A DNA stretch of 64,000 nucleotides, from assembly GCF_010671565.1 (NCBI RefSeq), contig NZ_JAABOQ010000003.1, positions 310,001-374,000 of the forward strand, given 5' to 3'. Positions 53,751-59,418 of this stretch are shown here, piece by piece. The position numbers and the translations under genes were made by a program. Position 1 is the stretch's first letter. Each line of letters begins with the position of its first letter. Below the pieces are notes generated by a model. The model did not search any database. It saw nothing but the letters and a program-made list of their open reading frames with translations, and had not been told where the DNA came from. Origin of the DNA: Spongiivirga citrea. GTDB taxonomy: Bacteria; Bacteroidota; Bacteroidia; Flavobacteriales; Flavobacteriaceae.

Positions 53751-54047
53751 TTAGTATCCAATTGAAGCAAGAGTAGCACGAGCTGAAGCTTCTGCAGCAG
53801 CTGCGGCGGCATCACAATCTCCTGAATGACTAGTAGCTCTACCTCTTGCTACTACACCATTTGAGAGTGTAATAGTTACTGTTACAGTGCAAATATCATC
53901 TACAACCTCGACTGAAGTATTTAACTTGTAATCGACCTTTTTTATCGAATTTTCAAGCGTATTTTCTAGTTTGTCAACAGCTTCTGAATTAGCAAAACCA
54001 ACGCCACTAAACAACATTAATGCCAATACCAAAAATAAATTTCTCAT
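53751..54047 (-). CDS. Small secreted protein, function unknown
   Basis: A 98-residue protein with a clean signal peptide (MRNLFLVLALMLFSGVGFA). The mature part has two cysteines (VDDICTVTV and HSGDCDAAA) that could form a disulfide, a threonine/valine-rich strand region (CTVTVTITLSNGVVARG) and an alanine-rich C-terminal helix ending ASIGY. No family is recognised. It heads the operon with the GLPGLI and barrel genes and may be a substrate, an anchor or a signal for them; that is speculation. Confidence 0.7.
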   Translation of the reverse strand: MRNLFLVLALMLFSGVGFANSEAVDKLENTLENSIKKVDYKLNTSVEVVDDICTVTVTITLSNGVVARGRATSHSGDCDAAAAAAEASARATLASIGY

Positions 54048-56272: not shown

Positions 56273-58171
56273 ATGAGTGACGCCATTAAGCACGAGTGCG
56301 GTATTGCACTAATTAGGTTATTAAAACCCTTAGCATATTATAAAGAAAAGTACGGGAGTGCATTTTACGGAGTGCAAAAAATGTACTTATTGATGGAAAA
56401 ACAGCACAACCGTGGTCAAGATGGAGCCGGTTTTGCAAGTATTAAATTAGATGTTGAGCCTGGACAGCGTTATATAAGTCGTGTACGATCGGTTGAACAA
56501 CAGCCCATTCAGGATATTTTTGCTCAAATAAACAGTCGTATTAATACTGTATTAGAAAAGCATCCGGAATATGCCGATGATGTAAACAAGCAAAAAGAAA
56601 ATATACCTTATATAGGAGAACTACTTTTGGGCCACGTTCGCTATGGTACTTTTGGCAAGAACAGTGTAGAGAGCGTACACCCATTCCTAAGACAAAATAA
56701 CTGGATGCACCGTAACTTGATCGTTGCGGGTAACTTTAATATGACTAATAATAATGAGTTATTCCAAAATTTAGTCGACTTAGGGCAGCACCCGAAAGAT
56801 AAGGTGGATACTATTACTGTAATGGAAAAAATTGGCCACTTTTTAGATGATGAAGTTGCTAAAATTTATAAAGATCTTAAGAAGGAAGGCTTCAATAAAA
56901 AAGAAGCGACGGCCGAAATTCATAAACGTATACGAGTTGGTAAGATCTTAAAACGTGCCTGTAAAAACTTTGATGGTGGCTATGCCATGGCTGGAATGAT
57001 GGGTCACGGTGATTCATTTGTGCTTCGGGATCCTGCAGGTATTCGACCTGTTTACTATTATAAAGATGATGAAGTTGTAGTAGTCGCTTCCGAAAGACCT
57101 GTGATTCAGACCGTATTCAACGTTCCTTTTGATAAGGTAGAAGAACTGGCGCCTGGGCATGCTATTATTACCAAGAAAAATGGCACAACGAATATCAAAC
57201 AAATTTTAGCGCCAATCGAAAGAAAGGCCTGCTCGTTTGAGCGGATCTATTTTTCTAGGGGAAGTGATGCCGAAATATATAAAGAGCGAAAAATGCTCGG
57301 GAAGCTAATCATGCCAAAGGTTTTAAAGGCCATCGATCATGATACTGTAAATACAGTCTTCTCATTTATACCAAATACCGCTGAGACTTCTTTTTATGGA
57401 ATGGTTGAAGCAGCACAAGATGAACTGAACAAACAGAAAACAGAAACCATTCTTGCCGAAAAAGACACCTTAACCGATGAGCGACTAAAAGAAATATTAG
57501 CACACCGTCTTCGCACTGAAAAAATTGCGATAAAAGATGCCAAGCTACGAACCTTCATTACTGAGGATAGTAGTCGAGACGACCTGGTTGCCCATGTTTA
57601 TGACATTACATATGGTGTTATAAAACCGGAAGATACACTTGTAATTATTGATGATAGCGTTGTAAGAGGTACTACCTTAAAGAAGAGTATCATAAAAATG
57701 ATGGATCGATTAAATCCTAAAAAGATTGTAGTCGTTTCATCTGCACCGCAAATACGGTATCCCGATTGTTACGGTATTGATATGGCGCGTATAGAAGACT
57801 TTATTGCTTTTAAAGCTGCTGTTGCACTTTTAAAAGAAACTAACAAATACGACCTGATTGATTCAATATATAAAAAGTGTCTTGCTCAAACCGAACTTAA
57901 AGATGATGAAGTTCAAAATTTTGTAAAAGAACTGTACGAACCATTTACTGAAGAGGAGATATCCGATAAAATTGGCGAACTACTTACCAGTGAGGATGTT
58001 AATGCCGAAGTAAAGATCATTTTTCAAAGTGTGGACAAATTACATCTAGCATGTCCTGACAATCTTGGTGATTGGTATTTTACAGGTGATTACCCCACTG
58101 CTGGTGGAAATCGTGTTGTAAATAGGGCTTTTATCAACTTTGTAGAGGGTAATAAACAGCGTGCTTATTAA
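56273..58171 (+). CDS. purF: Amidophosphoribosyltransferase, long form
   Basis: First committed step of purine synthesis: PRPP and glutamine to phosphoribosylamine. It is an Ntn-type glutamine amidotransferase with Cys9 (HECGIALIRLL), so an 8-residue propeptide must be removed, plus HVRYGTFGKNSVESVHPF. The PRPP site is TLVIIDDSVVRGTTLKKSI. At 632 aa it exceeds the usual 470-510 because of insertions, including NINSRINTVLEK-type and charged helices, and a C-terminal extension. This long form is found in Flavobacteriia. Whether a shorter PurF also exists cannot be told from the window. Confidence 0.92.
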   Translation: MSDAIKHECGIALIRLLKPLAYYKEKYGSAFYGVQKMYLLMEKQHNRGQDGAGFASIKLDVEPGQRYISRVRSVEQQPIQDIFAQINSRINTVLEKHPEYADDVNKQKENIPYIGELLLGHVRYGTFGKNSVESVHPFLRQNNWMHRNLIVAGNFNMTNNNELFQNLVDLGQHPKDKVDTITVMEKIGHFLDDEVAKIYKDLKKEGFNKKEATAEIHKRIRVGKILKRACKNFDGGYAMAGMMGHGDSFVLRDPAGIRPVYYYKDDEVVVVASERPVIQTVFNVPFDKVEELAPGHAIITKKNGTTNIKQILAPIERKACSFERIYFSRGSDAEIYKERKMLGKLIMPKVLKAIDHDTVNTVFSFIPNTAETSFYGMVEAAQDELNKQKTETILAEKDTLTDERLKEILAHRLRTEKIAIKDAKLRTFITEDSSRDDLVAHVYDITYGVIKPEDTLVIIDDSVVRGTTLKKSIIKMMDRLNPKKIVVVSSAPQIRYPDCYGIDMARIEDFIAFKAAVALLKETNKYDLIDSIYKKCLAQTELKDDEVQNFVKELYEPFTEEEISDKIGELLTSEDVNAEVKIIFQSVDKLHLACPDNLGDWYFTGDYPTAGGNRVVNRAFINFVEGNKQRAY

Positions 58172-58294
58172 TTGTAAATCACTATTAAACAAGACATAAA
58201 GGAGTTTCCTTATTAATTTCCTGTTAACGATTGTTATTTAACTAATAAAGATGTCGTTTAACTATAATATTATAATCGCTGAACAAACACCAGC

Positions 58295-58302
58295 TATATT
58301 TG
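58295..58302 (+). promoter_or_regulatory. Promoter -7 box of the first 72-nt RNA unit
   Basis: TATATTTG matches TAnnTTTG and ends 5 nt before the conserved unit at 58307. A -33 TTTG is not seen at the usual spacing. Confidence 0.5.
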
Positions 58303-58306
58303 TGTC

Positions 58307-58378
58307 ACCATAGCATAAGTAGGTTAAGTTCATGGTAAGATTTGGGGCAAAAAAAGGTGGATTATTCCGCCTTTTTTT
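58307..58378 (+). ncRNA. Candidate small RNA, copy 1
   Basis: A 72-nt unit that starts ACCATAGCATAAGTAGG, 5 nt after a TATATTTG box, and ends in an intrinsic terminator (GGTGGA-TTAT-TCCGCC flanked by A7 and T7). The 5' part can close a stem ACCAT/ATGGT (58307-58311 with 58331-58335) around a 19-nt loop, followed by a linker AAGATTTGGGGC. It matches copy 2 at 70 of 72 positions while the flanks have diverged. A 35-codon ATG frame (from 58331) crosses the terminator and is not favoured. No known RNA family is recognised from memory. Confidence 0.65.
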
Positions 58379-58482
58379 ACGTCTAGACTTTTCTATAAAA
58401 AGTGCAATTAATCGTGAAAAAAACCGATTAAACTTCTAAAATTGCATTTCATCGGATAAAAATGCTTTTCATCAACTAATTG

Positions 58483-58512
58483 TTTGCAGTATGAATATCT
58501 GCTCTATATTCG
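58483..58512 (+). promoter_or_regulatory. Promoter of the second 72-nt RNA unit
   Basis: TTTG (58483-58486), an 18-nt spacer and TATATTCG (58505-58512), a one-base variant of TAnnTTTG, end 5 nt before the unit at 58517. The distance to the unit is the same as for copy 1. Confidence 0.5.
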
Positions 58513-58516
58513 AAGA

Positions 58517-58588
58517 ACCATAGCATAAGTAGGTTAAGTTCATGGTAAGATTTGGGGCAAAAAAAGGTGGATTCTTCCACCTTTTTTT
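58517..58588 (+). ncRNA. Candidate small RNA, copy 2
   Basis: The second 72-nt unit, 210 nt downstream of the first, with the same 5' end, the same ACCAT/ATGGT stem and a terminator GGTGGA-TTCT-TCCACC with flanking A7/T7. It differs from copy 1 at only two bases: one in the terminator loop and one that changes a G-U pair to A-U, so the stem is kept. Both would be amino-acid-changing in the ATG frame, which argues against a conserved peptide. Transcription would be on the plus strand, ending before the convergent sod gene. Confidence 0.65.
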
Positions 58589-58763
58589 ATGGACTAAAGT
58601 CAACTCTTCTAAGACACTTTCTGACGTATCCTATTTGGGCCTAAATTCTTTTGAATATTTACTCTCTTGAAAAGACGATTGATTCAGAAATAAATTTTAA
58701 ATGCTTGGTCTACAAGGGATCTAGGAATTAAGTTCAAGTTGTCTTAAAAAAATTATGCACAAA

Positions 58764-58809: not shown

Positions 58810-59418
58810 TTACTTGCCTTGCGCGTATAGAGCAGAGACTTTCTCCCAATTAATCACATTAAAAAATGCGTTGATATAATCCGGTCTTCTATTTTGGTAA
58901 TTTAAGTAATAGGCGTGTTCCCAAACATCTAATCCTAAAACAGGAGTTCCGCCACAGCCTACACCGGGCATAATAGGGTTATCTTGGTTTGGCGATGAAC
59001 ATACCTCAACTTTTCCGCCTTCATGCACACATAACCAAGCCCATCCTGAGCCAAAACGCGTTGCAGCAGCTTTTGAAAAAGCTTCTTTAAATGCTTCAAA
59101 AGATCCGTATGCATCATTAATCGCACTAGCAAGATCACCACTTGGTTCACCACCACCATTAGGGCTCATTACTTCCCAAAAAAGTCGGTGATTGTAAAAT
59201 CCGCCGCCATTATTTCTAACAGCACCGTTGTTCATATCAAGATTGATTAAAATATTCTCGATCGTCAATCCATCAAGATCAGTACCCTCTATTGCGGCGT
59301 TTAACTTGCTTGTATATCCGTTATGATGTTTACTGTGATGTATTTCCATTGTACGAGCATCGATATGCGGTTCTAATGCATCGTACGCGTATTCTAATTT
59401 TGGTAATTGAAAAGCCAT
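58810..59418 (-). CDS. Superoxide dismutase (Fe/Mn type)
   Basis: Converts superoxide to hydrogen peroxide and oxygen in the cytoplasm. Metal ligands follow the family: His27 ([12 protein letters not shown]), a His in [15 protein letters not shown], and Asp and His in the signature [19 protein letters not shown]. At 202 aa it is normal. Whether iron or manganese is used cannot be read reliably from these residues. It has its own TAACTTTG promoter box and a terminator. Confidence 0.96.

Follow-up and report, generated by a model that had tools for sequence, protein, structure and literature searches.

The window analysed here, a 64,000-nt stretch of a Spongiivirga citrea contig, contains two near-identical short units arranged in tandem between a purF-like gene and a convergent superoxide dismutase gene. 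The name purF is our reading of the Pfam amidotransferase domain. The features of the locus are:

56273 to 58171, forward strand: purF-like gene with a glutamine amidotransferase domain, the conserved upstream neighbour
58233 to 58266, forward strand: putative LytTR-like operator of unit 1, with TTTAAC-N14-TTTAAC at 58237 to 58262
58295 to 58302, forward strand: -7 box TATATTTG of unit 1, at -12 to -5
58307 to 58379, forward strand: candidate small RNA (sRNA) unit 1, predicted transcript about 72 nt
58307 to 58336, forward strand: predicted 5' hairpin of unit 1, with loop GUAGG
58329 to 58347, forward strand: proposed seed UUCAUGGUAAGAUUUGGGG of unit 1, its 5' half inside the hairpin
58349 to 58378, forward strand: predicted A/U-flanked terminator hairpin of unit 1
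58444 to 58477, forward strand: putative LytTR-like operator of unit 2, with TTCATC-N14-TTCATC at 58448 to 58473
58505 to 58512, forward strand: -7 box TATATTCG of unit 2
58517 to 58589, forward strand: candidate sRNA unit 2, predicted transcript about 72 nt
58517 to 58546, forward strand: predicted 5' hairpin of unit 2
58539 to 58557, forward strand: proposed seed of unit 2
58559 to 58588, forward strand: predicted A/U-flanked terminator hairpin of unit 2
58810 to 59418, reverse strand: Fe/Mn superoxide dismutase gene sodA, the conserved convergent downstream neighbour

Elsewhere in the window, a 98-aa ORF on the reverse strand (53751 to 54047) has a signal-peptide-like start and a sub-threshold match to S30AE (22.4 bits against a cut-off of 23.7).

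The two 72-nt units (58307 to 58378 and 58517 to 58588) are identical at 70 of 72 positions with an offset of 210 nt, as the original prediction had stated, and the base that follows is A in both. Each unit starts at the fifth base after its box, since TATATTTG and TATATTCG end 4 nt upstream. Both are predicted to form the same two hairpins, with folds far better than those of shuffled sequences (z of -4.15 and -3.59). One of the two differences between the units lies in the terminator loop and the other turns a U-G pair into U-A. The latter had been described as a compensatory terminator change, but it is a one-sided compatible change rather than a compensatory double change. Both differences alter residues of the ATG frame (L to F and R to H), as had been noted. 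The proposed intrinsic terminator at the end of each unit agrees with the predicted fold and with related copies, in which the hairpin and U-run are maintained while the sequence varies. A mechanical terminator scan listed no site at either unit, probably because the A-run and T-run form part of the stem.

To place the units in a wider context, we carried out the Rfam and relatives searches that had been proposed with the original prediction. Rfam 15 gave no match at gathering score in the window or in 16 loci of the family (20 sources in all); a match to sraA (25 bits against a gathering score of 56) and other low-scoring hits owe most of their score to the terminator and were set aside. One unit searched against 99 relatives matched at E < 1e-9 in 44 of 60 same-family genomes (its own included), and the 39 relatives from other families gave no match better than 1.2e-4. 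A family model built from 25 sequences matches 240 of 299 Flavobacteriaceae genomes, covering 193 of 236 genera (213 of 249 among good genomes); the remaining 59 of the 299 have no match at E 0.001. Copy number ranges from 1 to 7 per genome among the matches listed. All 26 matching genomes in a sample of 196 from the order belong to the Flavobacteriaceae, and six of 247 genomes in a class sample match, five from this family plus one weak match outside it; these large samples were searched with stricter filters, under which weak matches are lost. An exact 23-mer occurs in at least 117 stretches of the species collection, under record titles that include Maribacter, Zobellia, Aquimarina, Cellulophaga, Robiginitalea and others, which we take to be Flavobacteriaceae, as well as a few vaguer ones such as 'Bacteroidetes bacterium'.

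Several borderline matches were examined individually. The out-of-family match in G376 (E 0.006, 29 bits) lacks most of the core and was taken as chance, and an apparent intermediate in G408 reads, in our judgement, as coding sequence. Locus L243 (genome G015), in which the loop is replaced, reaches 37 bits; neither purF nor sodA was matched in its vicinity, and its membership in the family is uncertain. Core fragments matched no paper in the full-text collection searched, and among the papers listed by wider literature searches no title or abstract opening points to the family. On these sequence comparisons, a new and widespread sRNA family in the Flavobacteriaceae is well supported: the reading of the units as small RNA genes is supported by their spread, the promoter box at a fixed distance, the maintained terminator hairpin, and the lack of both a conserved reading frame and an Rfam match.

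The position of the array is also conserved. In 104 of 149 loci with copies, the array is preceded by the purF-like gene in the same orientation and followed by sodA in the opposite one; where enough sequence was available on the relevant side, the purF-like gene was present in 117 of 126 and sodA in 88 of 99 (some genomes are included twice, so these are not species counts). Sequence was ample on either side of the array at 62 loci, of which 48 carry two to six copies and 14 a single copy. The median copy-to-copy spacing is 209 nt. Both neighbours were also found at 10 of 11 further loci holding mostly diverged copies, the exception being L243. The original prediction had recognised the tandem pair but overlooked the synteny, the copy number, and the upstream direct repeat and likeness of the core's 3' half to the FopS seed described below.

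We examined which parts of the gene are conserved using 370 distinct copies (394 BLAST matches, reduced to 388 by dropping those with a query start over 5 and to 370 by removing duplicates). Three versions of the 41-nt core account for 291 of them. Between tandem neighbours (233 pairs, some loci having been fetched twice), identity is 0.965 in the core and 0.706 in the terminator, against 0.471 upstream and 0.428 in the downstream spacer, where shuffled spacers give 0.392; the flanks have indeed diverged, as had been proposed from the window's pair. In the 5' hairpin, common copies show one-sided changes only, and RNAalifold detected no pair in which the two partners both differ. Of 21 variants that were folded (two of them with one and the same sequence), 20 retain an outer stem close to the two ends, L241 being the exception. 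In the variant ACCUGAAC..GUUCAUGGU the stem is re-paired with a moved bulge, at -8.0 kcal/mol, a value reached by 1.7% of random substitutions. For seven of nine tested hairpin variants more than 5% of random substitutions fold equally well, and support for the 5' stem is therefore moderate.

A TAnnTTTG box lies at -12 to -5 relative to the first base of the core, within one base (-13 to -11), in 334 of 358 copies, compared with 3 to 9 copies in five shuffles; a few genomes supplied loci twice here as well, so that these totals do not count species. According to an excerpt of PMC9723704, the flavobacterial sigma-A box sits at the same position. Further upstream, a TTYAWC motif is repeated after 20 bp. 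For this analysis the 358 upstream regions were thinned to 140, comprising 125 of type A and 15 of type B (a separate thinning reduced 366 to 196). The looser pattern TTNRNC-N14-TTNRNC occurs in 96 of the 125 type-A upstreams, against a shuffle mean of 0.85, and starts at -69 to -72 in 89 of those 96. A 21-bp period is present in 28 of the 125, a minority beside the 20-bp form. None of the 15 type-B upstreams has the direct repeat. A loose, uncontrolled pattern for an inverted half-site (GATGAAA-like) was also seen before the direct repeats in 26 of the 125 upstreams, for example at L013, L014 and L112.

The layout of this repeat is perhaps that of a LytTR operator, a likeness that we regard as a lead. 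Direct repeats are also used by other regulators, and the AgrA-RNAIII system provides an example of a LytTR-controlled promoter with a direct-repeat operator. LytTR sites consist of two repeats of 9 to 11 nt placed 11 to 13 nt apart, and YpdB binds GGCATTTCAT repeats (PMC4847170, in part); several upstream sites of the sRNA family read GCATTTCATC, and their 20-bp period fits only 9-nt repeats with an 11-nt spacer. The YpdB-yhjX operator, as described there, likewise has direct repeats about two helical turns apart. Genome-wide, the operator pattern occurs at 10 sites and its reversed control at 11, which reveals no regulon. The genome contains 24 LytTR matches as candidate regulators, and a choice among them would be a guess. 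An operator-like repeat at G000:C12:586364 (L264 1501) precedes small hydrophobic ORFs beside an apparent TonB-receptor gene, possibly a further target of the same regulator.

Copies with the type-B core (UUUAUGG, GGGA) are the last in the array in 77 of 78 cases and have their own conserved upstream stretch, TTTTTTATTTCCCACAATACCAGTAATTTAG (for example L012 1697 and L024 739). These copies may answer to another regulator. Because they combine this separate upstream sequence with the lack of the direct repeat, the array seems to unite operator-driven copies with one that is differently driven.

The closest described relatives in appearance are the FopS sRNAs of Bacteroides. FopS-10 pairs through its seed region with the start of a susC mRNA and blocks translation (PMC11697453, in part), and GibS, also from the Bacteroidaceae, likewise pairs around start codons (PMC7366714, in part). 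Like the present family, FopS comprises multicopy paralogous sRNAs of about 65 to 70 nt with a TAnnTTTG-type box a few nucleotides upstream (PMC11697453), and a 5' part UUCAU(A/G)GUA..AGAUUU followed by a terminator hairpin. In our units UUCAUGGUAAGAUUUGGGG, following on from the 5' hairpin, is antisense to a start-codon region and resembles the FopS seed, and the Rfam alignment shows UUCAUGGUA--AGAUUU in both core and FopS. For our family, for FopS and for the f2 copies described below alike, the seed's complement has the form of a start region.

There are also differences. The R1-type FopS seed UUCAU(A/G)GUAUUAGAUUU is a 5'-end feature, preceded by about 6 nt, while its likely counterpart in the core is internal, preceded by 22 nt that fold over it in a 5' hairpin absent from the FopS consensus. 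The seed is followed by GGGG here and by AAGG in FopS; our copies are tandem at one locus and those of FopS that we observed lie apart; and our copies have a putative direct-repeat operator. The FopS model (RF04319) scores 17.8 to 18.3 bits in the window, below its gathering score of 56, and in none of 40 relatives was that threshold exceeded; by the same model the FopS-type loci L281 and L284 reach 78 bits. FopS has an unstructured 5' part directly before the terminator, whereas both of our units are predicted to carry a 5' hairpin. Because of the score and the lack of an open 5' end, we do not regard the units as FopS members.

Five weak FopS hits in G060, a genome of another family in the order, led to a third group. 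Three are GAGUUUUUCAUAGUAAGAUUUUGGG or nearly so, one is a looser variant and one is unrelated; the GAGUUUUUCAUAGUAAGAUUUUGGG copies are followed by a terminator-like hairpin. These copies, from family f2 of the order (genomes G060, G075 and G086), equal the core at 17 of 19 positions, are spread over several contigs and score below the FopS gathering threshold; no purF or sodA match was found at the four loci examined, which represent three distinct copies. The f2 loci L271, L273, L275 and L312 to L314 (L275 and L312 being the same copy) look like FopS-like sRNA genes outside the Bacteroidaceae, sub-cut-off and with the start-antisense seed UUCAUAGUAAGAUUUUGGG.

We gauged the resemblance among the three groups with shuffled sequences. 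The f2 form was equalled by 2 and 6 of 5000 shuffles against two FopS forms and by 7 of 5000 against the main core; FopS against the main core alone gave 98 and 76 of 5000. A 5'-region profile made from seven FopS and two f2 forms (weak FopS-search hits L272, L274 and L276 being excluded) was reached by none of 30,000 shuffled cores, compared with 277 of 30,000 for a FopS-only profile. Although the combined profile contains no sequence of our family, its best matches in 90.8 kb are core copies, with 15.6 bits for the top copy, 14.0 for window unit 1 and 8.7 for the best non-core match. The AGA-type and type-B cores reach only about 7 to 8 bits, and their comparison with FopS is not significant. 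Over 296 genomes of the order, the profile attains E 5e-6 or better only in the three f2 genomes, 109 of the 296 contain at least one match at E 0.05, and both hits listed for the window's genome lie elsewhere than at the units; a search with the family's own model misses FopS (best E 0.67). A motif search covering 395 genomes of the class found 69 matches, spread over 32 genomes, while the reversed motif had 7; by our count 39 belong to the FopS type, 12 belong to the core type and 18 to neither, with FopS and core both present by construction because the motif was written from both families. A seed common to FopS and the core is likely, through either descent or convergence on start-codon pairing.

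We propose, with a probability of roughly 0.6, that the units are paralogous trans-acting sRNAs, perhaps under LytTR control, that block translation starts by seed pairing. Each unit would be a complete gene with a direct-repeat operator, a sigma-A-type promoter, an invariant 5' part of about 41 nt and its own terminator. A LytTR-family response regulator would switch the array on, and the tandem copies would increase dosage. The segment UUYAUGGUA(A)GAUUUGGGG, whose complement reads CCCCAAAUCUUACCAUGAA, would pair with the start-codon regions of mRNAs and hinder ribosome loading, by analogy with the experimentally shown action of FopS. In the predicted fold the 5' hairpin covers the UUYAUGGU half of the seed and leaves AAGAUUUGGGG and the GUAGG loop free, and this lid would open on the target. 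What comparison supports is the make-up of the gene, its multiplicity in tandem, its spread through the family, purifying selection acting on the RNA and the lack of a conserved peptide; the regulator, the dosage effect and the pairing are inferred.

Target scans were close to null. Across 697 start regions, drawn from 864 kb or 21% of the genome, complements of the seed show no enrichment, with 7 occurrences of 7-mers against 15.2 in shuffles and 53 of 6-mers against 58.2. Duplex energies over 1024 start windows are only slightly better than those of 12 shuffled cores (10 windows at or below -26, against 0 to 7). The 13 SusC genes of the genome show no convincing pairing at the first start; at one of them an alternative third ATG pairs at -29.3 kcal/mol. 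For the patterns tried in the 864 kb, a single bipartite match lies at an ORF start, namely CCAAATCAAAAAACCATGAA where an amidohydrolase gene begins (C12:218922); this is a lead only.

The conserved ATG within the core could instead mark a short peptide gene, and ATGGT is present in 368 of 370 copies. However, 66 of the 370 have a one-base indel directly behind it that puts the only ATG frame out of register, residues vary beyond the fifth codon, and in 250 of 368 copies no stop closes the frame within the 85 nt examined, which reach past the terminator. A peptide gene is therefore very unlikely, to the point that we rule it out, and the earlier preference for function at the RNA rather than the peptide level stands; purifying selection appears to act on the RNA. 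A repeat or mobile element with no regulatory role would account for the tandem copies, some of which we read as recent duplicates (for example L012 and L024), but such elements would not be expected from the fixed synteny, the copies' own conserved promoter and direct repeat, or the viral contigs, none of which has the exact core pattern. This explanation is very unlikely too, as is an artefact. We consider it improbable, if somewhat less so, that the units regulate their neighbours sodA or purF locally. The conserved gene order would suit such a role and the sodA leader in the window contains ACCATAAAC, but of 109 distinct sodA leaders just two, including that of the window, contain ACCATAA, which rules out sodA as a conserved cis target; each unit also has its own promoter and terminator, and some genomes (for example G007, G014 and G024) have extra matches elsewhere.

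The main rival is a protein-binding role, in which the hairpin and single-stranded stretch would bind an RNA-binding protein and the tandem copies titrate it, much as CsrB-type RNAs titrate CsrA. The almost unchanging stretch of about 41 nt, GUAGG loop included, the multiplicity of copies within genomes and the lack of clear mRNA targets in our scans are all in keeping with titration, and FopS itself is bound by RbpB (PMC11697453, in part). Each transcript would nevertheless present a single copy of the element, and the start-antisense UUCAUGGUA..AGAUUU is common to FopS, where this region is the pairing seed. We judge titration unlikely and favour antisense pairing at translation starts.

More tentatively, and with rather less than even confidence, FopS/GibS, the f2 copies and this family may be branches of one old Bacteroidota-wide class of start-antisense sRNAs, to which the Flavobacteriaceae would have added a hairpin lid and a tandem, LytTR-driven dosage array between purF and sodA. 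To our knowledge, few sRNA families have been described in Bacteroidota. LhrC and Qrr are tandem or multicopy sRNAs under two-component control; they resemble the array in having several near-identical sRNAs with their own promoters, but come from different phyla and are not known to be related in sequence. The Rfp sRNAs of Flavobacterium psychrophilum, a member of the Flavobacteriaceae, are independent sRNAs, some conserved in other species (PMC9723704, in part), and the RNA described here may be one of them.

If the proposal is correct, a tandem sRNA that has stayed at a single locus through much of the Flavobacteriaceae, its 41-nt core almost unchanged, would act as a core regulator in a large family of environmental bacteria. 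Bacteroidota ribosomes seldom use Shine-Dalgarno pairing, and the array would offer a ready test system for start-codon targeting in such a phylum, with an operator that would make the driving two-component system identifiable by test.
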